From contig NZ_AQQR01000011.1 of NCBI RefSeq assembly GCF_002210095.1, forward strand, positions 1 through 64,000: a stretch of DNA of 64,000 nucleotides, read 5' to 3'. Both the position numbers and the translations under genes were made by a program. Below, one piece after another: positions 542-31,626 of this stretch (the stretch's first letter is position 1; every line of letters starts with the position of its first letter). Source of the DNA: Marinibacterium profundimaris (GTDB lineage: Bacteria; Pseudomonadota; Alphaproteobacteria; Rhodobacterales; Rhodobacteraceae). Under the pieces are notes generated by a model, which saw only the letters and a program-made list of their open reading frames with translations, was not told where the DNA came from and ran no database searches.

Positions 542-1384
542 AGCTGCTTTTCACCCGCAACGAAAGTCCGTTTCGTCCCACAACCCGGTCATTACGGCAG
601 GCAGCACCGAACGGCCGCAGTGGCGGACGTTCGATCTCTGTTCCATTTCGACAAGTACCACTGGCATCGAAGTGCTCAGGTTGCCTGCCCGAAAAACGTA
701 ATAATTTCCGAAGCCTACAAGCTATTCACCAAAACGGCGCAGTCATGAGGTCCGGAGAATATCGGCCCTGAGAGACCCCTCCCGGGCCTTTTGGCGGCTG
801 GCCCAGTGCTCAGCCCCTCCCGCATAACCCTCGAAAACAACGGAAAAATCCGACCGCGGCCAGATCGGAAGAACGCTTTCGCGAGGGCAAGTGGCGGAGG
901 GGATGGGCCTGGCGTCCAACCTTCTCTGCCTCCTAACCTGTTGATTTTATACACTCAGATGCGAGGCAAGCAGATTTCTGCCGGGGCAATACCCGCTCCG
1001 CATCGTGCGGCGCACATCACTATCGTGCACCGAGCCGATTTAGGAGAAGCCGCCGCCCGCCGCGATCACTGCGAAGGGCTTTCCCTCCTGCCCCGGGAAC
1101 GGCGCACGAACGCCGATGCGCAGGGGTCCGCGCAACGGATGGTTCACATCTCAAGGCCAACGACGAATGGGCAGCCGCACGGCAATACTTGCGCCTTGAA
1201 ACGCGCGCTTGGGCACCGACCATCCAACGATCAGGCTGCCCGCCGTGGCGTCCTGATCGACCACGACGGCTCCGAGCGGTAGGCGCTTCATGGGGACAGC
1301 ATTCCAAGAGGTCCTTTGGTCGTTACTTGATATGTTTTCCTCGTCAGCTAACATTTGGCTTCAAGAGCGCGACCGGGGATTCGT
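542..1384. other. Gene-poor accessory stretch
   Basis: I see no convincing gene here. The first part holds copy 1 of the 272-bp direct repeat (628-900). Between about 1,020 and 1,354 two short minus-strand frames have protein-like composition. One starts near 1,290 with 'MKRLPLGAVVVDQDATAG'; the other lies around 1,030-1,140 and ends in 'GKPFAVIAAGGGFS', which faintly recalls the end of PQQ-type dehydrogenases. They are not joined and may be decayed gene fragments. The segment next to 1,385 should hold the promoter of the AraC-type regulator, but I see no clear boxes. Confidence 0.4.
628..900 (+). repeat. Long direct repeat, copy 1 (partner 18,910-19,181)
   Basis: This 273-bp segment aligns end to end with 18,910-19,181 (272 bp). 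It begins with the shared 20-mer ACGTTCGATCTCTGTTCCAT, includes the shared block GAGAATATCGGCCCTGAGAG, and ends in CAAGTGGCGGAG. Copy 2 runs directly into the 14-bp tRNA-Ser attachment core at 19,175. Copy 1 keeps only the first 8 bases of that core (TGGCGGAG, 892-899) and then diverges. The copies differ by scattered substitutions and small indels, so the duplication is old. Confidence 0.85.
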
Positions 1385-18721: not shown

Positions 18722-18909
18722 GGGCTCAGAACCGACTGCCGCGGTGCGACATGAGAACGCAAGACTGCTGCGATTGAATGTCTGCTTCGCCAAAGGGCCC
18801 ATTCGGCACGCACTCGCGACGAATGGCTTTTCTCCGCCCTTCCTGCAGAATTTCGACATCTGCCGCGTTGCAGCATCGATCAAGGTGGGCGGGAGAGACG
18901 GGCAAGCGA

Positions 18910-19181
18910 ACGTTCGATCTCTGTTCCATCTCGCCGAGCGCCACCGGGATCGAAGTGTTCAGGTCGAAACAGAAGAAAGTCCCGTTTTTCCAGAAGTTTA
19001 TAAGCTCTGCACCAAATCGGCGCAGTCATCAGGTCCAGAGAATATCGGCCCTGAGAGACCGCTTCCGTGCCTCCTGGCGCCTGAGCCGGTGCTCAGCCTC
19101 TCCCGCCTAACCCTCGAAAACAACGAGAAAATCCGGCCGCGGCCGGATCGGGAGAACGCTTTCGCGGGGGCAAGTGGCGGA
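18910..19181 (+). repeat. Long direct repeat, copy 2 (partner 628-900)
   Basis: Copy 2 of the long repeat. Its right end runs into the duplicated tRNA-Ser core at 19,175. Before the island at 19,175-30,472 inserted, this sequence would therefore have lain directly downstream of the tRNA-Ser gene. Confidence 0.85.
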
Positions 19182-19188
19182 GACGAAG
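19175..19188 (+). other. attL: copy of tRNA-Ser 3' end
   Basis: TGGCGGAGACGAAG, identical to 30,459-30,472. On the minus strand it reads CTTCGTCTCCGCCA, the last 14 nt of tRNA-Ser including CCA. The match stops at both ends (flanking bases differ), so this is the full identity block. Confidence 0.85.
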
Positions 19189-19347
19189 CCCGCCAGAGTT
19201 AGGTTTCCATTCTTCGCAACCTGTCGCAAATCGCCCTTCAAAACCAATCCTCTACGCCAAAAACTTTCAGATCCGCACCCGCCATCCATTGCAATTCGTC
19301 GCATCAGAACGCATGCTTTTTAGGAGGGTAAGTAGGAAGCTGAAATC

Positions 19348-20640
19348 ATGCCTCGCGTTGCCAAAGAACTGTCGGCACTCGAAGTTAAGAGGTTGAGCCA
19401 TCCCGGCAGGGGGCGCAACGTGAACTTCGCCGTGGGCGGCGTATCTGGCCTCATGCTGCAGATAACTCCGAACGGAGGCCGGACATGGGTTCTGCGAGTG
19501 ACCATCGGCGGCAAACGTAGAGAAATCGGCTTGGGCGGCTTCCCCGATGTGACGCTTGCCCAGGCCCGTGAGCGGGCGCGGGATACCAAGGACCAGATAT
19601 GGCGCGGCATAGACCCGTTGGAGGAACGCAAAGCCGCTCAAGCGTCACTTATGGCCGCCCAGCGCAGGGGCCTTACCTTCGCGGATGCGACCGACAAATA
19701 CCTTGCCGCGAAACTTGACGCCTTCAAGAACGCCAAGCACCGCCAGCAATGGCAGAACACGTTGCAGACCTACGCTATGCCCGAGCTTGGCCAGTTGCTG
19801 GTGGACGACATCACCGTGCAGGACGTGCTGCGCGTGCTGGAACCGATCTGGCAGACCAAGACCGAAACCGCATCCCGGTTGCGCGGGCGCATAGAGGCCG
19901 TGCTGTCATGGGCAACGGTGGCCGGGCACCGCACAGGAGACAACCCGGCGCGCTGGGCGGGGAACCTGAAAGAGCTTTTGCCCGCCGCTACAAAGGTGGC
20001 GAAGCAGGACAATCAACCCGCCGTGCAGATTGATGAGGCCCCGCGCTGGTTCGCCGCTCTTCGCGAAAGAGGTGGCACGGGGTCCCGAGCCTTGGAGTTC
20101 GCGGCCCTGACCGCCACTCGCTCGAAAGAGGTTCGCGGCGCGCTGTGGGACGAGATCGACCTAGACGCGGGCCTGTGGGTCATCCCGGCCGCGCGCATGA
20201 AGATGGAGCGCGAGCACCGGGTTCCGTTGTCGCACGAGGCCGTGGCGCTCCTGAAAGCCCTGCCGCGCTTTGAGGGCAACCCGCTGGTGTTCCCTGCCCC
20301 GCGCGGCGGCGAAATGTCGGACATGACACTCAGCGCCGCCATGAAGCGCCTGCACGCTGCTGACCTTGGCGCGGGCGGGCCGGGTTTCGTGGACCGAGTG
20401 AGCAAGCGCCCAGCCGTTCCCCACGGCCTGCGCAGCACCTTCCGGGACTGGGTGGCCGAACGCACGCATTTCCCCGGCGACATGGCCGAGGTCGCACTGG
20501 CCCACAAGGTGGGCAATGCCGTGGAAGCGTCATACCGGCGCGGGGACATGGTGGAAAAGCGCCGCGCGATGATGGCGGCTTGGGCAGACTACCTGACCGG
20601 CAAGAGCCGGGCCGGGGCAAGTGTGGTGAGGTTTGGATGA
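19348..20640 (+). CDS. Tyrosine recombinase, P4-integrase type (DUF4102)
   Basis: 430 residues. The N-terminal ~85 are the DUF4102 arm-binding domain ('GLMLQITPNGGRTWVLR', 'GLGGFPDVTLAQARERA'). Catalytic residues of the C-terminal domain are visible: R258 ('TATRSKEVRG'), H359-x-x-R362 ('HGLRSTFRDW'), H386 and the nucleophile Y396 ('SYRRGDMV'). It should catalyse integration and excision of the island at tRNA-Ser. The start has AGGAAG upstream. Its stop overlaps the next gene's ATG by 4 bp. Confidence 0.93.
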   Translation: MPRVAKELSALEVKRLSHPGRGRNVNFAVGGVSGLMLQITPNGGRTWVLRVTIGGKRREIGLGGFPDVTLAQARERARDTKDQIWRGIDPLEERKAAQASLMAAQRRGLTFADATDKYLAAKLDAFKNAKHRQQWQNTLQTYAMPELGQLLVDDITVQDVLRVLEPIWQTKTETASRLRGRIEAVLSWATVAGHRTGDNPARWAGNLKELLPAATKVAKQDNQPAVQIDEAPRWFAALRERGGTGSRALEFAALTATRSKEVRGALWDEIDLDAGLWVIPAARMKMEREHRVPLSHEAVALLKALPRFEGNPLVFPAPRGGEMSDMTLSAAMKRLHAADLGAGGPGFVDRVSKRPAVPHGLRSTFRDWVAERTHFPGDMAEVALAHKVGNAVEASYRRGDMVEKRRAMMAAWADYLTGKSRAGASVVRFG

Positions 20641-21425
20641 GTGACAACTGCGAAACAAATGGATTCAAGGGGGAGAGGCCCATAGAAGATGACCCGCTAT
20701 TTTTCTGGCGTTTGAACGACGACTTCAAGCTGCCAGATGCAGCAATCCTTATAACTGGCAATGACCCATCCAAGACTGAAATTCAGTACAATGAGAACGA
20801 GGGGTACGCACACTACAACTCTGACGGTTCGTACATGCGCGCCCAGAAGCGAGACTATGAAGGCTTCGAAGCCGTCTTCGGGGCGCTCAAAAGCGCCATC
20901 AGAAGGGGCACACTACAAGCCAAATTGACATATCAAGGGGGCGTAGCCGCCCATGGCGCTACCCGTGGGAAAAACTTCCGGGTGGTTGCTGCGCACGACT
21001 TTTGGCACCTGATCAGAGAGACTTCCGACAACCCATTCGCCAAATTCGAAGACGTTGAGATAGAGGTGGATGTGGACTGGGACGAAACTACCGTGGATGC
21101 TGATGACCTGAAGCGCTGGTTGCGCTCAAAGGGCTTCACCGGAGGGTTCTTCTTCCCAAACCAAGAAACGTTTGGAGGTGATGATTTTCTTGATGCTGGT
21201 CACGAGCATTTTTCCTCTGAGCTTGCGCTAGCCGTCAACGCATGGCGCGCATTGCTTCCGGAAAGAAAATTCAGAGGCGGCGTGAGAGCTGCCATTGACG
21301 CGTGGATCGTGGCCAATCCTGACGTGTGGCAAGGCGATGAGCCGCTTTCAGGGTCCGCGAAAGAGCGGATTACAACACTCGTGAACTGGAACAAGAGCGG
21401 CGGAGCGCCGAAGTCAGGCGGCTAA
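20637..21425 (+). CDS. Island protein of unknown function
   Basis: 262 residues from the ATG that overlaps the integrase stop (ATGA). It is acidic, with no signal peptide or membrane segment. The C-terminal ~80 ('FSSELALAVNAWRALL', 'VRAAIDAWI', 'VNWNKSGGAPK') resemble a helical tail I have seen in many uncharacterised mobile-element proteins that ends in a 'N-W-x-x-G-G-A-P' motif. Base composition is lower in GC than its neighbours, especially 20,640-21,240, suggesting separate acquisition. The coupling to the integrase hints at a role in recombination control, but nothing proves it. Confidence 0.65.
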   Translation: MSDNCETNGFKGERPIEDDPLFFWRLNDDFKLPDAAILITGNDPSKTEIQYNENEGYAHYNSDGSYMRAQKRDYEGFEAVFGALKSAIRRGTLQAKLTYQGGVAAHGATRGKNFRVVAAHDFWHLIRETSDNPFAKFEDVEIEVDVDWDETTVDADDLKRWLRSKGFTGGFFFPNQETFGGDDFLDAGHEHFSSELALAVNAWRALLPERKFRGGVRAAIDAWIVANPDVWQGDEPLSGSAKERITTLVNWNKSGGAPKSGG

Positions 21426-21551
21426 CCTACCCATCCCCCCACAGAACCAACCCACCCACTTAAGCATCTGCTTCTATTGACTTTTGCGTCTATCGAAGCA
21501 GCCAAGCCCAGAAACTCGCAGCTTGGGGCACCAGCGCAGGGTGGGTAGGTT
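21424..21551. promoter_or_regulatory. Regulatory region before the AlpA-like gene
   Basis: A 10-bp inverted repeat, AACCTACCCA (21,424-21,433) and TGGGTAGGTT (21,542-21,551), brackets a region with a possible -35 box TTGACT near 21,477. This is the only sizeable gap in the left half of the island and must hold the promoter of the replication operon, or an operator of it. Low certainty. Confidence 0.35.
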
Positions 21552-21653
21552 CGCAGTTCCAGGATGCCGCGGTTTTCTGAACCGCCCCAACTATTCTACA
21601 CCATATCTAGCGCACCACACTGCACCCAATCGCAACCCATTGGAGTGCATCGC

Positions 21654-21842
21654 ATGGCCCACACTTACCTTTCTGACGCCCAAGTCGCAGCCCGTTACGG
21701 TGTCCACCGCTCGACGCCCTGGCGCTGGGCGAAGTCCGATCCGAGCTTCCCGGCCCCCGTCACCCTGACGCCGGGCTGCACCCGCTGGAAGCTGGCAGAC
21801 CTTGAGGCATGGGAAGCCTCCAAGAACAGCAACGCCGCATAA
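21654..21842 (+). CDS. AlpA-like excisionase/regulator (MerR-type HTH)
   Basis: 62 residues: 'YLSDAQVAARYGVHRSTPWRWAK', then 'FPAPVTLTPGCTRWKLADLEAWEA'. This is the compact winged-helix of the AlpA / HTH_17 family, including the typical late Trp. In satellites and P4-type islands AlpA activates the integrase or acts as a recombination directionality factor. The ATG at 21,654 gives the normal family length; an upstream frame opening has no protein-like composition. First gene of the replication cluster. Confidence 0.85.
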   Translation: MAHTYLSDAQVAARYGVHRSTPWRWAKSDPSFPAPVTLTPGCTRWKLADLEAWEASKNSNAA

Positions 21843-21952
21843 GCGAACCGCCACCCCGGGCATGGGGCGGCGGCGATATTCGTTTGCGGCATCAGGAATA
21901 GCCCAAGCATAACGCCCAGCGCCCCGGCTCGCAACAAGACGAGGCCGAGCAC

Positions 21953-22249
21953 ATGGCTCAATCCGACCGCTGGTTTTCCAGCCCCACCCAGATCTTCTGG
22001 ACCTGCAAGGCGCTCCTGGATGGGCGCACCCTGACCCACAAGACCGAAATCCGCGAAGTGAAAGGCTGGCGACTGGCTTCAATCTGTCACCGGCTCAAGT
22101 CCGAATTCGGCTGGCCGATCCTGGTCGAGTATCGCGGGCCGGAGAACGTGGCCCATTACCGCCTCGCTTCCGGCACCGACCTGTCGCAGCTCCGGTTCCC
22201 GCCCAGCGCCAAGTCCTTGGCCGATGACCTGACCGGGGGAGCGGCATGA
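21953..22249 (+). CDS. Small winged-helix-like island protein
   Basis: 98 residues. The text 'TQIFWTCKALLDGRTLTHKTEIREVKGWRLASICHRLKSEFGWPI' has the helix pattern of a winged HTH, followed by a wing ('LVEYRGPENVAHYRL'). This suggests a small DNA-binding protein, possibly controlling or initiating island replication. Its stop overlaps the start of a 33-residue micro-ORF by 4 bp. I know no named family for certain. Confidence 0.65.
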   Translation: MAQSDRWFSSPTQIFWTCKALLDGRTLTHKTEIREVKGWRLASICHRLKSEFGWPILVEYRGPENVAHYRLASGTDLSQLRFPPSAKSLADDLTGGAA

Positions 22250-22347
22250 CCCGGCTCCAAGTTCTGTACCTCCGCCGCCTTCACGGTCTGACCGAAGCAC
22301 AGGCCCAGGCTATCGCCACAATCATCTGGGGGTCCGCCAATGGCTGA
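22246..22347 (+). CDS. Micro-ORF of 33 residues, translationally coupled
   Basis: ATG at 22,246 overlaps the preceding stop (ATGA); its own stop at 22,345-22,347 lies 8 bp inside the next gene, which starts at 22,340. The peptide 'MTRLQVLYLRRLHGLTEAQA' and what follows is a plausible amphipathic helix. Overlap at both ends with a preserved frame is typical of compact phage-like operons. It could be a short functional peptide or only a coupling device for the TOPRIM gene downstream. Confidence 0.5.
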   Translation: MTRLQVLYLRRLHGLTEAQAQAIATIIWGSANG

Positions 22348-23239
22348 GAGACCGAAGCGCACACGGCCGCGCGGCTTCGCGCCATGGAGCCCCCGCCCGG
22401 AAACCCTGTCGCTGGTTCAAGACATCTGCGCGGTGCTGGACGACTACAGGGCTCACCTCCCCCTGACCAATCGACAGGTGTTCTACCGGCTGGTAGCAAC
22501 CCGGGGCTTCGCCAAGACCGAAGCCGCATATGCGCGCCTCTGCGAGACCTGCAACCGGGCCCGCCGGGCTGGACTTATCCCCTTCGCGTCCATCCGCGAT
22601 GATGGGGCCGCCCGCTATGAGGCGACGGCTTGGACGGACGCCCAGGCATTCATTCGGGACATGCGCCGCGAAGCCGAAGCCTTCCGGCTCGACCGGCAGG
22701 AAGGCCAGCCGGTGCGACTGTGGGTTCTGTGCGAGGCAGGCGGCATGGCTCCGATGCTGGCCCGGGTGGCGGCAAGCTACGGCGTGCCGGTGCTGACAAG
22801 CGGCGGCTTCGACAGCGTGACCGCGAAACACGACCTGGCCCGCGAAATCTCCGGGGCGCTGGGCGACGGCGAAGCGGCCGAGGTTCTTCACCTTGGCGAC
22901 CTGGACCCATCGGGCGAGCATCTTTTTACCTCCCTGGCCGAGGATGTGTCAGCCATGACCGATGCCCTTTGCGGGGCAGCGCCGGACTTCACTCGTCTTG
23001 CCGTGACACGGGAACAGGCGGAGCGGCTGGGGCTCCCGACTGCCCCGCCGAAGGCGACCGACCGGCGGCGTTTCACGGGCGAAACGGTGCAGGCCGAGGC
23101 AATCGACCCCGACACCCTGGCGGACATCCTGCGCGATGCCATCGAGTTCCGCCGGAATGCCGAGGTTGCGGGCGATCTGCTTGACCGCGAAGCGGACATC
23201 CGGGGCGCGTTGGTCGCGATGATGGAGGGCACGACATGA
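22340..23239 (+). CDS. TOPRIM protein resembling topoisomerase VI subunit A
   Basis: 299 residues. The N-terminal part 'LTNRQVFYRLVATRGFAKTEAAYARL' recalls the winged helix of Spo11/topo VI-A (R45, Y49). A TOPRIM-like core follows: E132 in 'VLCEAGGM', then D187-x-D189 in 'LHLGDLDPSG'. These are the acid residues that hold Mg in topoisomerases, primases and OLD nucleases. I recall similar proteins in other proteobacterial islands, without a defined role. The stop overlaps the primase start by 4 bp. DNA cleavage or replication initiation is a reasonable but unproved role. Confidence 0.65.
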   Translation: MAERPKRTRPRGFAPWSPRPETLSLVQDICAVLDDYRAHLPLTNRQVFYRLVATRGFAKTEAAYARLCETCNRARRAGLIPFASIRDDGAARYEATAWTDAQAFIRDMRREAEAFRLDRQEGQPVRLWVLCEAGGMAPMLARVAASYGVPVLTSGGFDSVTAKHDLAREISGALGDGEAAEVLHLGDLDPSGEHLFTSLAEDVSAMTDALCGAAPDFTRLAVTREQAERLGLPTAPPKATDRRRFTGETVQAEAIDPDTLADILRDAIEFRRNAEVAGDLLDREADIRGALVAMMEGTT

Positions 23240-24123
23240 CCGATGCCCGCGACCTGACACTGACGCTCGGAGGCAGGTGGTATCGCTCCTACGGTACGGC
23301 CCCGTGCCCGGTCTGCCAGCCCGAGGGGAAGAAGACCCAAACCGCCCTGACCCTGGCCGATGGAAATTCCGGCCTGCTGCTGAACTGCAAGCGGGCCGGT
23401 TGCGACTTTCGCGACATTCTGGCGGCGGCGGGCGTTTCGCCCGGCGACTACTCCCCGCCCGACCCGGCGACCTTGGCCCAGCGATGGGCGGAAGAACAGG
23501 TTGAGGCCGAGAAGAAAGAACGCAGGGCCTTGGCCCTCTGGAACGAAGCCCTGCCGATCGGTGGCACCTTGGCGGAAGTCTACCTGAGGCAGAGGCGGGG
23601 CATCACCTGCGCCCTGCCTGACACGCTGCGTTTTCATCCCGACTGCTGGCATCCAACCGCCAAGCGGTTCCCGGCGATGCTGGCCCAGGTGGACGGGGCC
23701 AAGCGGTTCGCCATGCATCGGACCTATCTGCGCCCAGACGGCAGCGGCAAGGCTGATGTGAAGCCCGACAAGGCCATGCTCGGGGCGACCGCAGGCGGCG
23801 CTGTGCGGCTCACTGAGGCGCAGGGGCAACTTGTGGTGGCCGAGGGCATCGAAACCGCGTTGTCGCTCGCCTGCGGCCTCCTGCGCGCCCCGGCGACCAT
23901 CTGGGCCGCGTTGTCCACCTCCGGCATTCGCGGCCTTCACCTTCCTGACCGCCCCGGCCGCCTGACCATCGCGACAGACAGCGACGATGAAGGGGCAGGC
24001 AAGGAAGCAGGGCACGCCCTGGCCGAAACCGCCCATGCGCTGGGCTGGCAGGTGTCCCTGCTGCCCGCGCCAGAGGGGCGAGACTGGAACGACATTCTGA
24101 CCATGGGGAATGAAAGCAAATGA
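23236..24123 (+). CDS. Zinc-finger/TOPRIM DNA primase
   Basis: 295 residues. A CHC2-like zinc ribbon has C24, C27 ('CPVC'), C51 and C56 ('CKRAGC'). The middle DUF7146-type segment ('AEVYLRQRRGI', 'LRFHPDCWHP') is usual in mobile-element primases. The TOPRIM motif is E203 ('VVAEGIETALS') and D248-x-D250 ('ATDSDDEG'). It should make RNA primers for island replication. It is coupled by 4-bp overlaps to the genes on both sides. The pairing with DUF3987 downstream is the standard primase-helicase module of integrative elements. Confidence 0.88.
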   Translation: MTDARDLTLTLGGRWYRSYGTAPCPVCQPEGKKTQTALTLADGNSGLLLNCKRAGCDFRDILAAAGVSPGDYSPPDPATLAQRWAEEQVEAEKKERRALALWNEALPIGGTLAEVYLRQRRGITCALPDTLRFHPDCWHPTAKRFPAMLAQVDGAKRFAMHRTYLRPDGSGKADVKPDKAMLGATAGGAVRLTEAQGQLVVAEGIETALSLACGLLRAPATIWAALSTSGIRGLHLPDRPGRLTIATDSDDEGAGKEAGHALAETAHALGWQVSLLPAPEGRDWNDILTMGNESK

Positions 24124-25637
24124 ACACATTTTACGCCGCTCAAGTGGACGGTCAGGCCATTCCCTTCAAGGCCGAGGGCCCGCAGCCGCTGCTGCGCGAA
24201 ATCCCCGAAGGCGAGCCCTATCCCGTGGAAGCGCTGGGGCCGCTCAGGGCGGCCGTGGAAGCGGTGCAGGGGCAGACCCTAGCCCCCATAGCAATCCCTG
24301 CCGCTTCAGCCCTGTCTGTGGCCTCTCTGGCCGTGCAGGGCTTCTGTGACGTGGAGACGCTGGGCGGCGCGCGGCCGCTGTCGCTCTACGCGCTGACCGT
24401 CGCCAGATCCGGGGAGCGGAAATCGTCCTGCGATGCCCCGCTGATGTCCGCCCTGCGCATCTTCGAAAAGGAGCAAGCCAAGGAACGGCGCGACGACGTG
24501 GCCGCATGGGAAAACGCCCATGCCCTCTGGAAAGGGGAACGCGACCGCATTCTGAGCGAGGCCCGGAAGGGCAAAGGCGAAAAGCGGACTGCGGCCGAGG
24601 CGGACCTGGAAGCGCTGGGCAGGGAGCCCAGCGCCCCGCCTTCGCCCGACCGCACGGTGACGGAACCGACTTACGAGGGGCTGACCCGGAAGTTTGCCGA
24701 GGGCATGCCAACCCTTGGTATCTTCTCGGATGAAGGCGGGCAGTTTCTGGGCGGCTTCGCGATGTCGTCGGACAACCGCCAGAAGACCCTGGCCGCGCTC
24801 AATGACCTCTGGCAGGGTAATCCGATCCGGCGCACCCGGGCCGGGGAAGGCTCCTACACACTCTACGGGCGGCGGCTGGCGGTGCATCTCATGGTACAGC
24901 CCAGCGTGGCCCGCGCCTTCATGTCCGACCCCATGGCGGCCGACACCGGGTTTCTGCCCCGGTTCCTGATGTGCGAGCCGCCCAGCGCCATTGGCACCCG
25001 CCTGCAAGCCCATGTCAGGAACGACGGCGTTGCCCTGGCCGCGTTCGCCCATCAGCTTTCCTGCATTCTGGAAACGCCGCTGCCGATGAACATGGAGAGC
25101 CGCGAACTGGAACCCCGTGTTTTGCCCCTGGCGCAGGATGCGCGCGAAATGCTGACCGCCTATTCGGACCATGTGGAAGCGCAACAGGCCCCCGGGGGCG
25201 ACCTCGCCAACGTCACGGGCTACGCCTCCAAGGCGGCAGAACAGGCCGCGCGGATTGCCGGGGTGCTGACCGCATGGGGCGACCTTGACGCCCCTGCCGT
25301 CAGCCTGGACGCCATGGAGGCCGGAATTGCACTAGCCGACTTCTATCTGTCGGAGGCCCGGCGGCTGGCCGATGCCGCGAACGTTTCAGAGGAGATCGAG
25401 CGGGCCGACACGCTGCGCAAGTGGCTACTGGAACGCTGGGAGCACCCCGAGGTGATGCCGAGTGAAGTGGTGCGGCACGCTCCCATTCGGGCCCTTCGCG
25501 AAAGCCCGGCGGCGAAGAAGGCCATTGGTATCCTGGAAAAGTACGGATGGCTGATGCGCCTGCCCGAAGGGGCAGAGGTGCGCGGTGCCGCCCGGAAAGA
25601 AGCCTTTCGCATCGTGGGGGAACGCCATGAAGTTTGA
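24120..25637 (+). CDS. DUF3987 protein (helicase-like replication partner)
   Basis: 505 residues. DUF3987 (YfjI-type) is recognised by 'ALTVARSGERKSSC' (a Walker-A-like loop, residues ~94-104), 'PTYEGLTRKFAEGMPTLGIF', 'SDNRQKTLAALNDLWQG' and 'FLPRFLMCEPPS'. These proteins are thought to be the replicative ATPase partner of the neighbouring primase. An acidic, Lys-rich insertion (residues ~115-180) looks like a coiled coil. The last ~90 residues form a winged-helix-like end. It overlaps the primase by 4 bp and the next gene by 11 bp. Confidence 0.85.
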   Translation: MNTFYAAQVDGQAIPFKAEGPQPLLREIPEGEPYPVEALGPLRAAVEAVQGQTLAPIAIPAASALSVASLAVQGFCDVETLGGARPLSLYALTVARSGERKSSCDAPLMSALRIFEKEQAKERRDDVAAWENAHALWKGERDRILSEARKGKGEKRTAAEADLEALGREPSAPPSPDRTVTEPTYEGLTRKFAEGMPTLGIFSDEGGQFLGGFAMSSDNRQKTLAALNDLWQGNPIRRTRAGEGSYTLYGRRLAVHLMVQPSVARAFMSDPMAADTGFLPRFLMCEPPSAIGTRLQAHVRNDGVALAAFAHQLSCILETPLPMNMESRELEPRVLPLAQDAREMLTAYSDHVEAQQAPGGDLANVTGYASKAAEQAARIAGVLTAWGDLDAPAVSLDAMEAGIALADFYLSEARRLADAANVSEEIERADTLRKWLLERWEHPEVMPSEVVRHAPIRALRESPAAKKAIGILEKYGWLMRLPEGAEVRGAARKEAFRIVGERHEV

Positions 25638-26139
25638 CCTCAAGGCGGCCCGCGCCCGTATCGAGGGGAAATCAGGTTCAGAGGGTCCGGGCGGTGCTAT
25701 TCATGCTATTTGTGCTATTCCAGCGCCCCCGAATAGCACGAATAGCACAAATAGCACGGCAGGGGCCGCCTGCGTCGAAATCGAACGGCCGCAGGGCGCG
25801 GCGGATGTGCCCAGCCCTGGGAACCTGACAAAACCTGACATCGCAACGGCCAAGCAACGGGCCCGGCAGCCCAGTGCAGAGGCTACGCCGCGATTACCAC
25901 GCGACACGCCCTCGAAACTGGAAAACGCGGCAACCCGGCCCCAGCCCTTGGAGCCTTCGCGGCAGGACGCAGAAACCTTCCCGCATGGCCTATCCGTAGG
26001 AGGCAGCCCGCTCACCTGGACGGGCCGGGTGGTCAGCCTGGACACATGGCGAAGGCTATCCGAATGGGAGCGCCACGGGCCGAACGGGAGGCTCTGGAAC
26101 GGCATCACTGGCCAGTGGGAAGACGGGGGCGGGGCATGA
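25627..26139 (+). CDS. Low-complexity island protein with NST repeats
   Basis: 170 residues. The start at 25,627 lies inside the DUF3987 gene (11-bp overlap). The first 20 residues are charged ('MKFDLKAARARIEGKSG'), followed by 'AIHAICAIPAPPNSTNSTNS', encoded by a large DNA hairpin. A long Pro/Ala/Thr-rich, probably disordered middle comes next, then an end 'LSEWERHGPNGRLWNG' that recurs in small proteins after DUF3987 in other elements. Function unknown. Confidence 0.6.
   Translation: MKFDLKAARARIEGKSGSEGPGGAIHAICAIPAPPNSTNSTNSTAGAACVEIERPQGAADVPSPGNLTKPDIATAKQRARQPSAEATPRLPRDTPSKLENAATRPQPLEPSRQDAETFPHGLSVGGSPLTWTGRVVSLDTWRRLSEWERHGPNGRLWNGITGQWEDGGGA
25694..25757. repeat. Hairpin of TGCTATT repeats inside a coding region
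   Basis: The left arm (25,694-25,720) has three TGCTATT units at 9-bp spacing. The right arm (25,731-25,757) has three AATAGCA units. The 27-bp arms pair at 24 of 27 positions around a 10-nt loop (CAGCGCCCCC). Within it, GCTATTTGTGCTATTC has a perfect 16-bp reverse complement. The 9-bp period equals three codons, giving the NST repeat. It may be an iteron/origin or a slippage-grown repeat. Confidence 0.85.
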
Positions 26140-26567
26140 GCATGAACCGCGCCCAGCGCAAGGCAATGCAACGCCGCACCGGGATCGGCCCGGCCAAGCT
26201 GGCCCGCCACTGCTACGACATTCGCGGCGATGCCCTGGTGCGGGTTTCGGACCCGGCTGCCGTGGCAGTGCTCACCCGGGCCTTCACGCTGCTGTTGTGC
26301 TCCGGTGGTCTTCCGGTTGCCATCGAAGTGACCCCCGACGAGGCTCGGGCTTTCCCGCGCTTCCGGGACAACCCTGCCGGGCTGGGCGTGACGTGGCTTG
26401 CCGTTGGTTTCGACAGTGAGGGCAGAGCGTCCTACGCCTTGCAGACCGCGAATTGCGAGGATGGCGCACTGGCCTCCGAGGCTGCCCGAGTGCTGGCCTG
26501 CGCCAAGCTGGCGGAGGTTTGCGCCACGCCGGGGTTTCCAATCTGCAAGACGAGGGGGCGCGCATGA
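26136..26567 (+). CDS. Island protein of unknown function
   Basis: 143 residues. The start at 26,136 overlaps the previous stop (ATGA) and the stop overlaps the next start, so the gene is certainly part of the replication operon. The N-terminus is basic ('MNRAQRKAMQRRTG'). The middle 'AVLTRAFTLLLCSGGLPVAIEV' looks like a buried helix-strand unit. I recognise no domain. Confidence 0.6.
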   Translation: MSMNRAQRKAMQRRTGIGPAKLARHCYDIRGDALVRVSDPAAVAVLTRAFTLLLCSGGLPVAIEVTPDEARAFPRFRDNPAGLGVTWLAVGFDSEGRASYALQTANCEDGALASEAARVLACAKLAEVCATPGFPICKTRGRA

Positions 26568-27052
26568 CCGGGGCTGAACTGGCGGCAATTCGCAAGGCGG
26601 CCGGGCTGTCGCAAACCGCCCTCGCCAAGCGCGTGGGCATCGGGCGGCATGCCGTCTCTTATTGGGAAACCAAGTCCGAGGTGGACCGGCGCGCCTGGGC
26701 GGTGGACCGTATGGCCGAAGTGCTGCCCCTGCCGGATATACCCCGCATCACACGCCCGCATGCGGGGTGGGCTGATAAGCTCGAAGCCGAGACCAAGACG
26801 CGGGAGGCGGCATTCAGGGCCCAGGTCTCGAAGTGGGAAAGACAGCAAGCCGAAGCGGCGGCAAAGCGGCGAGTTCGTTGCGGGGCCAAGACCCGGAAAG
26901 GTACGCCTTGCCGTGCGAAGTCCCTGCCGGGCAAGAGGCGTTGCAAGTTTCACGGGGGCATGTCCACCGGGGCACGGACGCCAGAGGGCATTGAACGTAT
27001 CCGTGAAGCGCAGCGGCGGCGCTGGGCGCGATGGAAGGCAGAGCGGGAATAG
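26564..27052 (+). CDS. XRE-type HTH fused to a HGG zinc-like domain
   Basis: 162 residues. Residues ~3-60 are a Cro/CI (XRE) helix-turn-helix ('IRKAAGLSQTALAKRVGIGR', 'VSYWE'). After a charged coiled coil comes 'CGAKTRKGTPCRAKSLPGKR', then 'RCKFHGGMSTG', a Cys/His mini-domain widespread in prophages and islands ('HGGxSxGxxTxEG'). It is probably a DNA-binding regulator of the operon it ends. It overlaps the upstream gene by 4 bp and is followed at once by a hairpin. Confidence 0.8.
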   Translation: MTGAELAAIRKAAGLSQTALAKRVGIGRHAVSYWETKSEVDRRAWAVDRMAEVLPLPDIPRITRPHAGWADKLEAETKTREAAFRAQVSKWERQQAEAAAKRRVRCGAKTRKGTPCRAKSLPGKRRCKFHGGMSTGARTPEGIERIREAQRRRWARWKAERE

Positions 27053-27069
27053 AGGGTTTTTGCCCTCTA
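27050..27069 (+). terminator. Hairpin at the end of the replication operon
   Basis: TAGAGGG-TTTTTG-CCCTCTA: a 7-bp perfect stem that includes the stop codon TAG of the XRE-HGG gene. No long T-run follows (TTAAAAGG), so it is a weak intrinsic terminator or an mRNA-end stabiliser. Confidence 0.5.
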
Positions 27070-27461
27070 TTAAAAGGGCTCCCGGGGCGTCGAACCACTG
27101 CCGCAAGCCGGTTGATAAAAGTTGTCATCCCGAGCCTGCCGCCCCGTAATGGGGTCTTACATTTCGGCACTTGATAAAAAATCAAAGAAATCAAGTTGGC
27201 GGTTGCCGGATTTCCGGACCAATGTGCGCGCGGGATGAGGTGTTGCGCGGGGCGCGGGCATATCACTGAAAGCAGAGATAGGGGCTGCCGGGTTTCGGCA
27301 CAGGTGCGCGCCTGGGATGAGGTGTTAGGCCATGCCTAAACCCTAAGATTACCCTAATGCGCTGGGCGCGCGGGCGGAGCCAATACCGGTCATGCACGAC
27401 AGGACCGCAACCCTAGATTCGGGTTCTTCTTTCTCTGTCACGGAAAAAATCTTTGGGGCGG
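27070..27461. other. Non-coding control region of the island
   Basis: About 390 bp without a gene, between two convergent blocks. It holds an imperfect 44-bp direct repeat (27,201-27,244 and 27,283-27,326; both end in GGGATGAGGTGTT) and a perfect palindrome TTAGGCCATGCCTAA (27,325-27,339). A replication origin or a packaging site would be plausible here. Confidence 0.5.
27201..27326. repeat. Two 44-bp direct repeats in a non-coding gap
   Basis: Copy 1 is 27,201-27,244 and copy 2 is 27,283-27,326. Both have the layout GG(T/C)TGCCGG...GTGCGCGC...GGGATGAGGTGTT. They are separated by 38 bp and lie outside genes. Confidence 0.6.
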
Positions 27462-27686
27462 TCACTTCCGCATGTCTTCGGGGCGCGGCTCCGCAATGTA
27501 TGCCTTACCATCCTTTTCGCTCTTCCATGGGTTCCCGAATGCCTTCGGGTGCTCCGGCTCTTGGCCTCCGGCAACATCCGCCTTCACGGCGCGCCGTTCC
27601 CGGCGATGCTCTGCGACCTTGAACGCTTTGTCACTGATGGCCGTCGTGATGCCCCCGGCGGGCGTTTTCTTACGTGACCGGCTCAC
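27462..27686 (-). CDS. Small basic island protein
   Basis: 74 residues from the GTG at 27,686, which overlaps the upstream stop (GTGA) and has GGAGGG 7 nt before it. It begins 'VSRSRKKTPAGGITTAISDK', followed by 'HRRERRAVKA'. This type of short basic protein is common in Rhodobacterales phages and islands. It may bind nucleic acid. Last gene of the minus-strand trio led by the XRE repressor. Confidence 0.6.
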   Translation of the reverse strand: MSRSRKKTPAGGITTAISDKAFKVAEHRRERRAVKADVAGGQEPEHPKAFGNPWKSEKDGKAYIAEPRPEDMRK

Positions 27687-27910
27687 TTCTCTACCCTCCA
27701 AATAGCTTGATACAGATCCGCCAGAGCGTCCCCGATACCTTCAGCCTTCGCCTTCAAGTCTTCGCGTTCTTGGATGAATGGGTGTTCCTGAACGAAATCC
27801 GCAAAGTGCTGGCCCACAACAAAGGCTCTGTCGCCCGCTTCATGCTGAAAGCCTGGGAACGCATCGCCGATTGTGCGGGGTCCTTCCATGTCGTCAATGT
27901 CGTCGGTCAT
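27683..27910 (-). CDS. Small acidic island protein
   Basis: 75 residues, acidic, mostly helical ('GQHFADFVQEHPFIQEREDLKAKAEGIGDALADLYQ'). The ATG at 27,910 overlaps the stop of the XRE gene (27,907-27,909), so it is coupled. No known family. The acidic protein followed by a basic one could form a complex, but that is a guess. Confidence 0.6.
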   Translation of the reverse strand: MTDDIDDMEGPRTIGDAFPGFQHEAGDRAFVVGQHFADFVQEHPFIQEREDLKAKAEGIGDALADLYQAIWRVEK

Positions 27911-28143
27911 TCCTTCACCTCCAATGCAACACCCGGACCCGTTGCGACTTGCCCCCCTTCGAGGAATTGGACGCCCTGGGCTTCGAGCGCGCGCCGAATG
28001 GCTTCAGCGCTGGATAGCTGCAAGCCGCTCTTGCCCGTCTCAAATCGGTTGATTGTCGTGAAGGATACGCCCGCCTGCGCCGCCAATTCCCGGACGCCGA
28101 GCCCAAGAGCCGCGCGCGCCATTCTTACCTGTTCCGGCTTCAT
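27907..28143 (-). CDS. XRE-family repressor
   Basis: 78 residues, almost all a Cro/CI-type HTH ('VRMARAALGLGVRELAAQAGVSFTTINRFETGK') with the short C-terminal strand 'LEAQGVQFLEGGQVATG' usual in such stand-alone regulators. It faces away from 28,250 across a region with four CGCTTAC sites, so it probably represses its own operon and the rightward genes, like a phage lysogeny switch. Confidence 0.85.
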   Translation of the reverse strand: MKPEQVRMARAALGLGVRELAAQAGVSFTTINRFETGKSGLQLSSAEAIRRALEAQGVQFLEGGQVATGPGVALEVKE

Positions 28144-28144
28144 T

Positions 28145-28224
28145 CGCTTACCTTGTTGCCAAATGCGCTTACAGGGTAGTTGACTTATCGCTTACCCTGT
28201 ACCATATCTATAACTCAGTAAGCG
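28145..28224. promoter_or_regulatory. Divergent control region with four CGCTTAC sites
   Basis: The heptamer CGCTTAC occurs at 28,145-28,151, 28,166-28,172 and 28,189-28,195, and its reverse complement GTAAGCG at 28,218-28,224. A rightward promoter TTGACT (28,180-28,185), 17 nt, CATATC (28,203-28,208) overlaps the third site, which lies between the two boxes. Binding of the adjacent XRE protein there would block transcription. Confidence 0.6.
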
Positions 28225-28249
28225 AAAACGCAAACAAGGTTATAGACCC

Positions 28250-28558
28250 ATGACCATAGACCGCGCCGAACTGTTCCGCCTTGCATGGGCCTGGGCAAAG
28301 CAAGACCTCTGGTCCCGCCGCCTGCCTGCCTCGCACCTTCGCGGCCTGTTCCGTGAAGCTCTGAAACGCGCATGGGCTGACCTGAAGCGCACCGCCGCGC
28401 GGCTGGCCGCCCAGCGCAAGACGACCGCCGCCACCCGCCCGGCCGCTCAAATCCAGACCGACATCCTTGTGCTCGAATGTAAGGACCGCCTGCACGGCTC
28501 CGACTGGCAGCGCCTCGACGCTCTCCGGGCGGAACTCATGGCGGCACACGCAGCCTGA
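28250..28558 (+). CDS. Island protein of unknown function
   Basis: 102 residues, helical and basic ('LFRLAWAWAKQDLWSRR', 'LKRAWADLKRTAARLAA', 'RLDALRAELMAAHAA'), with no signal peptide. First gene right of the operator region, so its expression should depend on the XRE repressor. This is the position of early genes such as Cro-like or anti-repressor proteins in phage switches, but no such motif is visible. Confidence 0.6.
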   Translation: MTIDRAELFRLAWAWAKQDLWSRRLPASHLRGLFREALKRAWADLKRTAARLAAQRKTTAATRPAAQIQTDILVLECKDRLHGSDWQRLDALRAELMAAHAA

Positions 28559-28591
28559 CCTTTTCCCGAACCAACAAGCGAGAGAACCACC

Positions 28592-28960
28592 ATGACCCAC
28601 AATCTGACCCGCCGCGCCTTGCTGGCTGCCGCTCCTGCCGGGGGTATTGCCATGATGGCAACGACAGGGGGCGGTACACAGTACCCGCCCCAAGCCGAGG
28701 ATGGACCATTCTTGGTGGACCTGACGAACCGGCCCGGGGATGTGGCATTGTGCTACCCGTGCGATGAAATCGTTCACGCGCTCGCGTATGTGACCGCCGA
28801 TGGGGCGCTTATCTACGGGGAAGGCAACCGGGCCAACCTTGGCGATGGCTGGCGCAGGCTTGACCCCGGAGAAATCGAAGTGATTGGGCGGGTGGCCTCG
28901 CTCCACTCGAAGGACCGGCGTGGTTGGTTCACTTACGGAAGCGGTGAGTTGGCAGGCTGA
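28592..28960 (+). CDS. Exported protein of unknown function, Tat-like signal
   Basis: 122 residues. The N-terminus 'LTRRALLAAAPAGGIAMMA' has a twin-Arg and hydrophobic stretch like a Tat signal. The mature part is 'DVALCYPCDEIVHALAYVTADGALIYGEGN' with a vicinal 'CYPC' pair. No family recognised. Follows the previous gene by 33 bp. Confidence 0.55.
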   Translation: MTHNLTRRALLAAAPAGGIAMMATTGGGTQYPPQAEDGPFLVDLTNRPGDVALCYPCDEIVHALAYVTADGALIYGEGNRANLGDGWRRLDPGEIEVIGRVASLHSKDRRGWFTYGSGELAG

Positions 28961-29230
28961 GGCCCCTACGGACGCAGACAACGCAAGACGGACAGGCCCT
29001 GCCCAGCGCGGGGCCTTTCGTTTTGGGCAGAGCTTCACCGGCGCCAACCGGTCAGGCTCGCGCGTCTCGTGGGATAGTTTTCAATGGCAACAGTGCGACC
29101 GCGTACTGCTTTCGGGCTTCGGTGTCGCAACACAATGCTACGGCATGTTTCGAATTGCATCGTTATAGACTTCATGCGCATTCATCTTCTACCGTACTGA
29201 ATCTAACGCAATTTGCATGGACCAATACCA

Positions 29231-30295
29231 ATGAGCGGATTCGAGAGCGCTATCGCGGCACTGGCAGAAAGAGTGAAAGAGCACTCGGAGACAATCCAAA
29301 CGGAGGAAGCGGTGAAGACCTCTGTCGTCCTCCCTTTCCTTCAGGCGTTGGGCTATGATGTTTTCAATCCCGCAGAGGTGGTGCCAGAGTTCACGGCAGA
29401 TACCATCGGCAAGAAGGGCGAGAAGGTTGACTACGCCATTAACAAAGCCGGTGAAGTTTCGATCCTGATTGAATGCAAGGGTTTGAGCACACAACTCAAC
29501 GAAAAGCACCTCGCCCAACTCTATCGCTACTTCACGGTGACCAACGCACGTTTTGCCATGCTGACCAACGGCCGAGAGTATCGTTTCTTCACAGACTTGG
29601 ACGAGAGCCACCGCTTGGACAAGCGCCCCTTCTTTGTCTTTGACCTGCTCGACTACAATCCGGGTTCCATCTCGGAACTGGCGAAATTCTCTAAGTCTTC
29701 CTTCGATGTAGACAACATTCTGCTTCAAGCGGAACGGCTCAAGTACGTTTCAGCCATCAAAAAGGTTCTCGAAGATTGGATCGATCAACCGTCTGATGGC
29801 CTAGTGAGACTGGTCGCAGCCGAGGTTCACGAAGGACGCTTGTCTCAGCCGGTCAAAGAAACAATCGGTACTGCCCTCAGCGCGGCATTCAAGGAAATCG
29901 TGAGAGACCGAGTAAGAGGCCGGTTGAATTCGGCTCTAGAAGACCCGGTTCCCGAACAAACGCCGCACAATGAGCCCGACCATGTGCAGCCTAGCGACAC
30001 TGGCGTTGTAACAACACAGGAAGAGATAGAAGGCTGGCTCACGATTAAGGCCATTCTCCGCGAAACGGTTGATACAGACAGGATTTTCATGCGGGACGCC
30101 AAGAGTTACTGCGCGGTGCTCCTGGACGACAACAACCGCAAACCCATCGCCAGGCTTCACTTCAATGGAGCAAAGAAGAAATACATCGGTCTGTTTGACG
30201 GCGAAGCCGAAGAACGTGTGGAAATGGAATCGATGAAGGACTTCTTTGCGCTGGCGGACCGTGTGAAGGCCGCTGTCGCGAAGTACGACGAGTAG
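29231..30295 (+). CDS. Solitary HSDR_N-type nuclease (type I restriction R N-terminal domain)
   Basis: 354 residues from ATG 29,231. The N-terminal ~150 form the PD-(D/E)xK nuclease of HsdR: D67 ('EKVDYAI'), E81-C-K83 ('ILIECKG'), then the Q/Y motif 'QLYRYF', preceded by the typical 'EEAVKTSVVLPFLQALGYDVFNPAEV'. There is no helicase part or hsdM/hsdS. The C-terminal ~100 ('GWLTIKAILRETVDTDR', 'IARLHFNGAKKKYIGLF') recur in stand-alone members. Lower GC than the neighbours and its place beside attR mark it as cargo. An anti-phage or regulatory DNA-cleaving role is likely. Confidence 0.8.
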   Translation: MSGFESAIAALAERVKEHSETIQTEEAVKTSVVLPFLQALGYDVFNPAEVVPEFTADTIGKKGEKVDYAINKAGEVSILIECKGLSTQLNEKHLAQLYRYFTVTNARFAMLTNGREYRFFTDLDESHRLDKRPFFVFDLLDYNPGSISELAKFSKSSFDVDNILLQAERLKYVSAIKKVLEDWIDQPSDGLVRLVAAEVHEGRLSQPVKETIGTALSAAFKEIVRDRVRGRLNSALEDPVPEQTPHNEPDHVQPSDTGVVTTQEEIEGWLTIKAILRETVDTDRIFMRDAKSYCAVLLDDNNRKPIARLHFNGAKKKYIGLFDGEAEERVEMESMKDFFALADRVKAAVAKYDE

Positions 30296-30458
30296 CGCCG
30301 ATTCTGTCGCTTACGCCAGTACCGCCACAGGAAAACCTCCAACCGAAGACGGCTTCTCTGTGTCGCACCACATTGCGTTCAAGCGCAAATGGCATGGCGG
30401 GTCGGTAGGTGGGTAAGGCAACCATTTCGCCATTTTTGTCAACAAAATCAAAGGCGGA

Positions 30459-30472
30459 TGGCGGAGACGAAG
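30459..30472 (+). other. attR: 3' end of tRNA-Ser
   Basis: TGGCGGAGACGAAG, the last 14 nt of tRNA-Ser on the opposite strand, matching 19,175-19,188. The element restores or keeps an intact tRNA at this end. Confidence 0.85.
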
Positions 30473-30548
30473 GGATTCGAACCCTCGAGACGGTTTCCCG
30501 CCTACTCCCTTAGCAGGGGAGCGCCTTCGACCACTCGGCCACGTCTCC
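30459..30548 (-). tRNA. tRNA-Ser (anticodon GCT)
   Basis: 90 nt on the minus strand. It begins GGAGACGTGGCCGAGTGGTC, with acceptor stem GGAGAC pairing with GTCTCC, and a D-loop. The anticodon loop CTGCTAA gives anticodon GCT. A long variable arm is typical of Ser tRNAs, and the T-arm is GAGGGTTCGAATCCC. The 3' CCA is encoded (30,459-30,461). It reads Ser AGC/AGU codons. Its 3' end is the attachment site of the island to the left. Confidence 0.96.
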
Positions 30549-30636
30549 GTCGGTCGGTCTAGTCGGTCGGACCATGGAGGACAAGCCCAAACGTCACCAA
30601 AATTTTGCATCCCCGCGCGGAATGCACCGACCGCGC

Positions 30637-31626
30637 TCAGTAGCTCCGAAGCATCCGCGTGATCTCCGCCGGATCGGAGCTCAGCGTCAGCGCGAAGCTC
30701 AGCAGGATCCGCGCCTTCTGCGGGGTCAGGTTGTCCGCCGGCAGGATCCCGGCCTTCTGCAGGCCGGTCAGATCCGCAACCCGCCCCGCGGCGCGCGAGG
30801 ATTGAAGCACCACGACCCCGCTGCCCACCGCCGCGGCCAGCGCCGCGTGTTCCGCCGGCGGCGTCAGACCGGGCGCGAACCCGGCCGAGACGATGCCCTT
30901 CGCCCCCGCCGCCACGAAGGCGCGCACCGCCGTGCCGTCGGCCCCCGCATGCGCGTAAGAGATATCGACACGCGGCAGGATCTCCATCGCGGCAAGGTCG
31001 AATTCGGTCGCCACGGTGTGGGCGCGCACCGGGCGGCGATAGATCTCCACCCCGTGGGCATCGGCATGACCCAGCACGCCGAAATCGGGCGTCCGGAAGG
31101 TCTGCAGACGCCAGACCGACGTCTTGGTGACCTCGCGCGCGGCCTGGATCTCTTCGTTCAGCACGAGCAACACGCCCAGCCCCCGCGCCTCGGGCGCCAG
31201 CACCGTGCGGATCGCGGCCATCATGTTGGCCTCCGCATCGCCGGAAATCGCCGAGGCCGGCCGCTGCGCCCCGGTCAGCGCCACCGGCAGGTCCACCGTC
31301 AGGCCCAGGTTCAGCGCATAGGCCGTCTCCTCCATCGAGGCGGTGCCATGCAGGATCACGACGCCGGCCATGTCGGGGTCTTCGGCCAGCCGCGAGATTT
31401 CCGCGGCCAGGCGCGTCCAGTGGGCAAAACCCATCTCGGTGCTCAGCACCGGCGGGAAGTCCACCGGCACCACATCGGCCAGCTCCGACAGGCGCGGAAA
31501 CCGCTCCAGCATGCCCGCCGAATCAAGGATCCGCCCGTGCCGGCCGTAATCCTGCACATCGAACCCGTCCGCCCCGAGCGAAGAGATCGTGCCCCCCGTC
31601 CCGATCAGAGCCACCTTCTTTGCCAT
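30637..31626 (-). CDS. Asparaginase-like protein with an altered catalytic motif
   Basis: 329 residues of the type I/II asparaginase fold: 'ALIGTGGTISS' (T10/T13), 'VVILHGTASMEETAYAL', 'VALTGAQRP', 'REVTKTSVW' (K168). In true asparaginases the second motif reads HGTDT, whose Asp forms the Thr-Lys-Asp triad. Here it is HGTAS (T95-A96), so the catalytic Asp appears to be replaced by Ala. Enzymatic activity may be lost or changed. It ends a three-gene set with a RibB-like protein (11 bp upstream) and a flavin reductase, near the RutA-type gene. Annotation as plain asparaginase would be unsafe. Confidence 0.8.
   Translation of the reverse strand: MAKKVALIGTGGTISSLGADGFDVQDYGRHGRILDSAGMLERFPRLSELADVVPVDFPPVLSTEMGFAHWTRLAAEISRLAEDPDMAGVVILHGTASMEETAYALNLGLTVDLPVALTGAQRPASAISGDAEANMMAAIRTVLAPEARGLGVLLVLNEEIQAAREVTKTSVWRLQTFRTPDFGVLGHADAHGVEIYRRPVRAHTVATEFDLAAMEILPRVDISYAHAGADGTAVRAFVAAGAKGIVSAGFAPGLTPPAEHAALAAAVGSGVVVLQSSRAAGRVADLTGLQKAGILPADNLTPQKARILLSFALTLSSDPAEITRMLRSY

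Follow-up and report, generated by a model that had tools for sequence, protein, structure and literature searches.

A Topo VI-A-like protein-encoding island within tRNA-Ser(GCT) of Marinibacterium profundimaris is a probable minimal phage satellite

An 11.3-kb mobile island lies within a tRNA-Ser(GCT) gene of Marinibacterium profundimaris (Rhodobacteraceae), which raises the question of what kind of element has settled there and how it would move. The window, by which we mean the whole stretch of DNA analyzed here (64,000 nucleotides, positions 1 to 64,000 of contig NZ_AQQR01000011.1, forward strand), had been given a first-pass annotation, in which the island was thought to suit a phage satellite. 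As judged from its sequence, the island is probably an integrated, apparently intact, minimal, helper-dependent satellite similar to the phage-inducible chromosomal minimalist islands (PICMI). This assignment is made because some kin with this layout encode a terminase or head proteins, and because the gene set of the island and the overlap between its integrase gene and the following gene resemble those of PICMI.

The first step is to establish where the island ends. The intact target gene, tRNA-Ser(GCT), lies at 30459-30548 on the - strand (ARAGORN; Rfam RF00005), and its last 14 nt form the tRNA-side att core (30459-30472, + strand). As the first-pass annotation had stated, an exact-match search finds these nucleotides duplicated without mismatch at 19,175, where they form the distal att core TGGCGGAGACGAAG (19175-19188, + strand); both cores are also supported by the empty-site alignment described below. 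In the 64-kb window, TGGCGGAGACGAAG occurs exactly at 19175 and 30459 only. When up to two mismatches are allowed, three matches, two of them exact, are found versus 0.91 expected, and the whole 6.15-Mb genome holds one further exact copy, on another contig and with no tRNA within the surrounding 3 kb. An Rfam scan of window positions 1-33000 returned nothing besides the tRNA. For the empty-site test, window positions 18906-19174 were joined to 30459-30700 and aligned to the loci of eight relatives. The joined flanks align unbroken through the junction in seven loci (L055, L062, L075, L078, L079, L072, and L045), with 361 bp at 86.7% and 2 gap positions in L055 of genome G027. The eighth locus, L047, aligns on the tRNA side only, and its tRNA-adjacent sequence looks, on inspection by eye, like the terminal part of a different integrase gene. 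Because the joined flanks align through the junction, the left flank is fused to the tRNA in these seven island-free loci, which answers the earlier concern that relatives lacking the island might keep a stray 14-bp copy there. The junction of the excised circle is predicted to be AAGGCGGA-TGGCGGAGACGAAG-CCCGCCAGAG.

The genes of the left half of the island, all on the + strand, form a compact mobility and replication block. Island proteins were scanned against Pfam (16 proteins), PHROGs (10), and PADLOC (10), and NCBIfam was also used. The P4-type tyrosine integrase (19348-20640, 430 aa) contains the Pfam domains Arm-DNA-bind_3, Phage_int_M, and Phage_integrase (PF00589, E 1.5e-14); its frame starts 159 bp inward of the distal repeat and lies, as had been noted, at the end opposite the intact tRNA. 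The stop codon of the integrase gene shares a 4-nt ATGA overlap (20637-20640) with a 262-aa gene (20637-21425), which we call iolg-like after the integrase-overlapping gene of PICMI and which is missing from the gene list of the first-pass annotation. Its product has no Pfam, PHROG, or NCBIfam match, and among the loci searched a homologue outside the window was found only in L230 (25%, E 1e-26). The next gene encodes an AlpA-like helix-turn-helix (HTH) regulator of 68 aa (21636-21842), which is weakly matched in Pfam and has homologues between the integrase and topo genes in relatives. It is followed by a 98-aa open reading frame (ORF; 21953-22249) with a partial homologue in L093 (41% over 58 aa), which was dropped as a conserved gene for having too few homologues. 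Three replication-type genes then follow: a Topo VI-A/Spo11-like TOPRIM protein of 299 aa (22340-23239), hereafter topo; a primase-like protein with DUF7146 and Toprim_3 (23236-24123; Pfam, PHROG); and a DUF3987 helicase/primase-like protein (24120-25637; PF13148, E 7.5e-93; phrog_2373). Beside them lies a 169-aa ORF (25630-26139) that keeps this position by the replication genes in relatives, with partial homologues in 5 of 131 loci. Mobility and replication genes together account for over half of the island. The Pfam scan of 16 proteins and the PHROG scan of 10 gave no match to a structural, relaxase, or coupling-protein family, which agrees with the earlier statement that the island carries no structural or conjugation genes. 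The rest of the earlier gene list largely holds: the integrase, Topo VI-A-like, primase, DUF3987, XRE, and HSDR_N assignments all have family matches, while that of AlpA stays weak and under cut-offs.

The topo protein deserves closer description. It matches phrog_6247 'DNA topoisomerase' in PHROGs (E 4.7e-34), and a profile built from 55 relatives has a match to 1D3Y, the A subunit of Topo VI (E 1.9e-4). Across the 55 aligned sequences, R45, Q46, Y49, and R50 never vary, and conservation of E132, D187, and D189 is 90% or higher. The protein therefore carries the TOPRIM signature (Glu, Asp-x-Asp) and an active-site-like Tyr; Y49 would be the catalytic residue. An AlphaFold model built from the 55 sequences (pLDDT 93) has 1d3y as its top match in VIA-align (Z 12.2, root mean square deviation 4.9, 146 residues aligned), followed by 9o0g (Z 11.7), the C. 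glutamicum nuclease 8b7f (Z 11.4), and more Topo VI A chains; JetD (7til) scores Z 9.5. The structural alignment is confined to approximately residues 106-272, the TOPRIM half, and Topo VI-A comes out on top only via VIA-align, as Foldseek with the same model gave no match at E <= 0.001. An earlier model from 5 sequences (pLDDT 77) gave no useful fold match. Furthermore, no Topo VI B (ATPase) subunit was matched among the 16 island proteins scanned. Mobile-element Topo VI-A-like proteins have reportedly been named 'mini-A'.

To place the island among its kin, the topo protein was used as a guide. At E <= 1e-20 it is found in 10 of 394 family genomes, the window's own included; two of the others reach 73% identity, and identity to any kin does not exceed 74%. 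In total, 131 related loci were searched, 75 from a scan of named genomes and 56 from a viral scan. Eight elements, the window and seven relatives, were chosen for having both an integrase and a tRNA. All eight have att repeats of 14-49 bp at the 3' end of the tRNA and the integrase at the opposite end; their targets are tRNA-Ser (GCT, GGA, and CGA), tRNA-Ala, and tRNA-Asn, and the seven relatives measure 6.5-10.4 kb (6.5-11.3 kb with the window). An integrase-profile hit is present in 29 loci; 24 of them, together with the window, form a wider set of 25 rows. Of these rows, 9 carry the repeat at the far end, at a tRNA that is annotated; L089 has a 49-bp tRNA-like repeat with no annotated tRNA, L094 has a repeat within tRNA-Val on the integrase side, and in the remaining 14 rows, several of them incomplete loci, no such repeat was found. 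The integrase gene overlaps the next gene in 9 of 25 rows, by 4 nt in six and by 1 nt in three, and in the other 16 the detected start of the next gene lies elsewhere or no gene was found.

The gene order is shared with three relatives. L083, L084, and L095 have the order integrase, AlpA-like, topo, primase, which a DUF3987 match completes in L084 and L095; in L083, the DUF3987 query has no match at E 1e-4, and a 571-aa ORF occupies that place. In L095, the integrase, AlpA-like, topo, primase, and DUF3987 genes and the 169-aa ORF are all present in the same order between att repeats. In L086, the genes also lie together between att repeats, with a changed order and no AlpA match. The first-pass annotation had asked whether the genes from 20.6 to 30.3 kb are linked elsewhere; this is so for the 21.6-26.1 kb block, which lies between att repeats in L095, L083, and L086, while the genes from 26.1 to 30.3 kb were searched only in loci fetched with the topo gene. 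Direct terminal repeats occur in two of 34 short contigs checked, L159 (127 bp) and L196 (51 bp; topo 33%). L159 was rejected as an excised satellite, as it has no integrase-profile hit and one of its ORFs reads by eye as part of a terminase.

The link to phages comes from three kin of the same layout. L122, in tRNA-Ser(GCT), encodes a terminase large subunit (TerL; PHROG, E 1.1e-22). L126, in tRNA-Asn, has PHROG matches to a major head protein (E 6.9e-13), a head maturation protease (E 8.3e-32), and HNH. L113, in tRNA-Ser(GCT), encodes a head-protease fusion (PHROG, E 1.4e-133). Iterated profile searches were then seeded with the head and terminase genes of these three. Of the 75 genome loci, 14 proved to have a head or terminase gene on the downstream side of topo (L094, L100, L103, L104, L111, L113, L114, L116, L118, L119, L121, L122, L124, and L126). 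TerL-like genes are present in 11 of these 14 loci and portal-like genes, sought with seeds named by eye, in 8; neither was found in a further 14 loci included in the search, several being incomplete. In the window, the head, TerL, and portal profiles have no match. From the kinship with L122, L126, and L113, together with the likeness to PICMI, we infer that the earlier suggestion of a phage satellite is supported.

As observed on reading, L119 has, in order, the integrase gene, the overlapping gene, topo, portal, protease/head, connectors, the small terminase subunit, and TerL, with no tail gene in view; L111 and L118 likewise show no tail gene. Eight loci (L119, L111, L118, L104, L114, L116, L103, and L124) combine topo with portal-like, protease/head, and terminase-like genes and are candidate capsid-forming satellites.

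Several observations weigh against the satellite assignment. Neither a helper nor a circular form, packaged DNA, or transfer was seen here. The AlpA-like protein matches PF12728 (E 1.6e-4) and PF05930 (E 0.0038), both under the curated cut-offs. Only 5 of the 14 head loci have an integrase-profile hit (L094, L113, L119, L122, and L126). The head-gene loci are distant from the window, at 44-54% topo identity, and no head gene was found in the close relatives examined, several of whose contigs end early. The topo tree places the window together with L083, L084, and L095 (100/98). It includes 12 'head' rows, 7 of which belong to a single clade apart from that of the window. That clade has ten rows, of which L103, L111, L118, L119, L114, L126, and L122 have head genes and L107, L108, and L125 have none; four more 'head' rows lie in a 24-row group that also contains the window. 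The 'head' label requires 8 changes on the tree versus a shuffled mean of 11.0, and 4 of 500 shuffles are as low; the label is clustered, yet it has been gained or lost repeatedly unless the sampling is incomplete.

DNA comparisons point the same way. No near-identical copy of the island was found, nor did the host genome yield a second DNA match to it among the 40 candidates, out of 165, that were scored, and the right-hand 6.4 kb (24100-30458) matches three phage records, all in the nuclease gene. Since the genome gives no such match and the phage matches are confined to that gene, there is no sign of a shared packaging site; for the left half, the comparison with phages covered the topo, primase, and DUF3987 proteins. 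Among plasmids, megablast gave three records, of which the best covers 11% of the query, over the integrase. In addition, the topo family occurs in 63 of 50,697 phage records and 52 of 72,556 plasmid records, 43 of the latter from Streptomyces, so the topo protein alone is no marker of a satellite. Nor does the mobility module alone make a satellite, because a similar one also occurs with an apparent restriction-modification (RM) pair. L230:3983-12830 is an 8.8-kb island in tRNA-Ser(CGA) whose integrase, overlapping gene, and AlpA-like gene are similar to those of the window; where the replication genes would be expected, inspection by eye suggests another tyrosine recombinase and a type III RM pair, and there is no topo match.

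The sequence to the left of the island bears on the alternatives. Upstream of 19175 lies not plain chromosome but the end of a non-coding, dispersed 277-bp repeat, 'X' (18906-19182, + strand), which stands just outside the distal core and abuts the tRNA in island-free relatives. Other copies lie at window 623-899 and at G000:C26:29726. The repeat is matched in 75 of 198 family genomes (E <= 0.001), but a class-wide sample of 289 yielded, apart from the genome of the window, just three with a match at E < 1e-10. Eighteen of 33 distinct copies run directly into tRNA T-arm motif sequence, and the eight of these checked by ARAGORN are all tRNA-Ser, GCT or GGA. The longest open frame on each side of 29 copies, drawn from the best-scoring matches to the repeat, was compared with PADLOC families at E <= 1e-10. 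On the far side of the repeat, 13 of 29 frames match (BrxL, DndC, type I and II RM, and others), versus 0 of 29 on the tRNA side. This asymmetry suggests that mobile defence islands end in the repeat on their tRNA side and that the satellite-like island was inserted between such a repeat end and the tRNA. Beside the other window copy, positions 2-538 match PADLOC at E 3.8e-22.

Some further features of this neighborhood were noted. At the contig edge, 2-541 encodes what was identified by eye as the C-terminal portion of a GmrSD/DUF1524-like protein. In the window, the two repeat copies are separated by 18 kb that encode AraC, SH3, PDZ, hydrolase, and YkuD proteins and a tail gene resembling that of a gene transfer agent (GTA); no recognised defence system and no integrase-profile hit were found in this interval. 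The tail gene, GTA g15-like (GTA_TIM; 14056-18021), lies beside the island and is 48% identical to a second copy at G000:C1:452514-456389, for which reason it may derive from a GTA-like prophage remnant. In copies of the repeat that do not abut a tRNA, another conserved stretch, GGGATGGGCCTGGCGTCCAACCTTCTC..., often comes after the core and precedes ordinary-looking genes, as at window 885-930 and in loci L061, L065, L068, L069, L080, L082, and L045; this stretch may represent the opposite end of the element or what is left of a tRNA end. Where repeat copies are followed by att-like sequence, the integrases of L231 and L232 look broken or precede unrelated genes, and L233 has no integrase in view.

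These surroundings allow for a defence or cargo island with an integrase/iolg/AlpA module that is transduced passively and whose replication genes serve only the excised island, a reading that we consider unlikely. The module of L230 with its apparent type III RM pair, the defence genes beyond the 277-bp repeat at many tRNA-Ser sites of the family, and the solitary HSDR_N nuclease aboard all agree with it. Against these stand the share of the island given to mobility and replication genes, the PADLOC scan of 10 island proteins, in which only two HTH regulators score, both weakly, and the nuclease itself, which was found in none of the 131 related loci and has no PADLOC match. Similarly improbable is a mobilisable integrative element that excises and replicates itself and is moved by a conjugative element through an origin of transfer rather than packaged by a phage. 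The island has no packaging gene, topo relatives occur on the plasmid records counted above, and the DUF7146 primase has some likeness to the C-terminal region of TraI, a relaxase/helicase (TIGR02760, E 4.6e-16, far under cut-off); yet the Pfam scan of 16 island proteins shows no relaxase or coupling-protein family, and the three same-layout kin carry terminase or head genes. The least likely reading is a degraded prophage or integrated plasmid that is no longer mobile, as its small size, the absence of any head or tail gene match, and the phage remnants suggested by the neighboring g15-like gene are outweighed by open core genes, a perfect att repeat (14/14), and the same compact gene block kept in other genomes.

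The right-hand part of the island contains mostly small genes. A 146-aa ORF (26127-26567, + strand; no Pfam, PHROG, or NCBIfam match) is followed by a protein with an XRE HTH and HGGxSTG (26561-27052, + strand; PF13560, NF041373). Short repeats at 27194-27326 were considered as a replication origin and set aside, the evidence being too weak. On the - strand, two small ORFs of 79 and 75 aa (27462-27910; no Pfam match) lie in line with an XRE repressor-like gene of 78 aa (27907-28143; PF13560, PF01381). The divergent spacer next to it (28143-28240, no strand assigned) holds a candidate operator, with direct and inverted repeats around CGCTTAC. On the + strand, a 102-aa ORF (28250-28558; homologue in L088, 34%) and a 122-aa ORF (28592-28960; no Pfam match) precede the solitary HSDR_N-type nuclease (29234-30295; PF04313; phrog_4225 'endonuclease', E 5.8e-109), which is probably cargo.

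If the island is a helper-dependent satellite, its cycle could run as follows. The XRE repressor would keep the island silent until phage infection or induction, when the AlpA-like protein would switch on the integrase and its overlapping partner. The integrase and the overlapping-gene product would excise the island at the 14-bp core, and the Topo VI-A-like protein, the primase, and the DUF3987 protein would replicate it, probably into concatemers. A helper phage would package the island DNA, which would re-enter the 3' end of tRNA-Ser in the next cell and restore the tRNA. The HSDR_N nuclease would probably act against competing phages.

More tentatively, the Rhodobacteraceae might harbor a satellite lineage built around the Topo VI-A/Spo11-like protein. 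One clade would be mostly self-heading, while the close kin of the window, without findable packaging genes, would rely wholly on helpers. This lineage would share tRNA-Ser docking and the mobility module with the defence islands marked by the 277-bp repeat, so that both would compete for, or move through, one integration platform. If the satellite assignment holds, minimal capsid-free satellites extend beyond the Vibrionaceae to an abundant alphaproteobacterial family, one gene lineage becomes available for comparing capsid-making and capsid-free elements, and a Topo VI-A-like protein, usually tied to recombination and decatenation, is assigned to satellite replication. The 277-bp repeat at tRNA-Ser genes also offers a simple sequence handle on the mobile defence islands of the family.

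Among known systems, P4-like satellites have a P4-type integrase, an AlpA-like regulator, and a primase. The island has all three, and its Pfam and PHROG scans show no P4 capsid-sizing or Psu/delta families. Capsid-forming phage-inducible chromosomal islands (cf-PICI) have their own capsid, portal, and terminase genes. In line with PMC11389934, L103, L104, L111, L114, L116, L118, L119, and L124 resemble cf-PICI in combining topo with head-, portal-, and TerL-like genes, whereas the window island has none of these three and, because no head gene was found within it, is not a cf-PICI. According to parts of PMC12595487, islands I23, I44, and I55 are inserted in tmRNA, carry defence systems, and in one case are moved by a jumbo phage. 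Similar to these, the island has a 14-bp direct repeat at an RNA gene, a tyrosine integrase, a weakly matched AlpA-like regulator, and no autonomous transfer genes; unlike them, it uses another RNA gene and shares a different gene set. In a literature search of one open-access library, none of the titles listed, one of them on gene-transfer rates in plankton, described satellites in Rhodobacteraceae.

The closest counterparts are the PICMI, which are experimentally shown satellites of Vibrionaceae (PMC10803314). There, an integrase-overlapping gene is reported in 21 of 35 PICMI subfamilies, the search model uses DUF3987 and DUF5906, and integration at fis is given as a hallmark, with an average length of 6.7 kb; outside Vibrio, the authors describe PICMI-like variants in incomplete form only. 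The island is not a PICMI, because it is inserted in tRNA-Ser(GCT) and not beside fis; it also differs in its length of 11.3 kb and its Rhodobacteraceae host. Beyond what PICMI have, it encodes a Topo VI-A-like protein, an XRE switch, and, as a separate primase, the DUF7146/Toprim protein. PICMI115 has an integrase gene, an ATGA-overlapping gene required for excision, alpA, and a primase gene, has no capsid genes, and is packaged as a concatemer (PMC10803314). The island likewise combines a tyrosine integrase, an ATGA-overlapping gene, a weakly matched AlpA-like gene, a DUF3987-type primase, and a flanking direct repeat in a small set of genes that includes no capsid genes. By analogy, it looks set to work like a PICMI.

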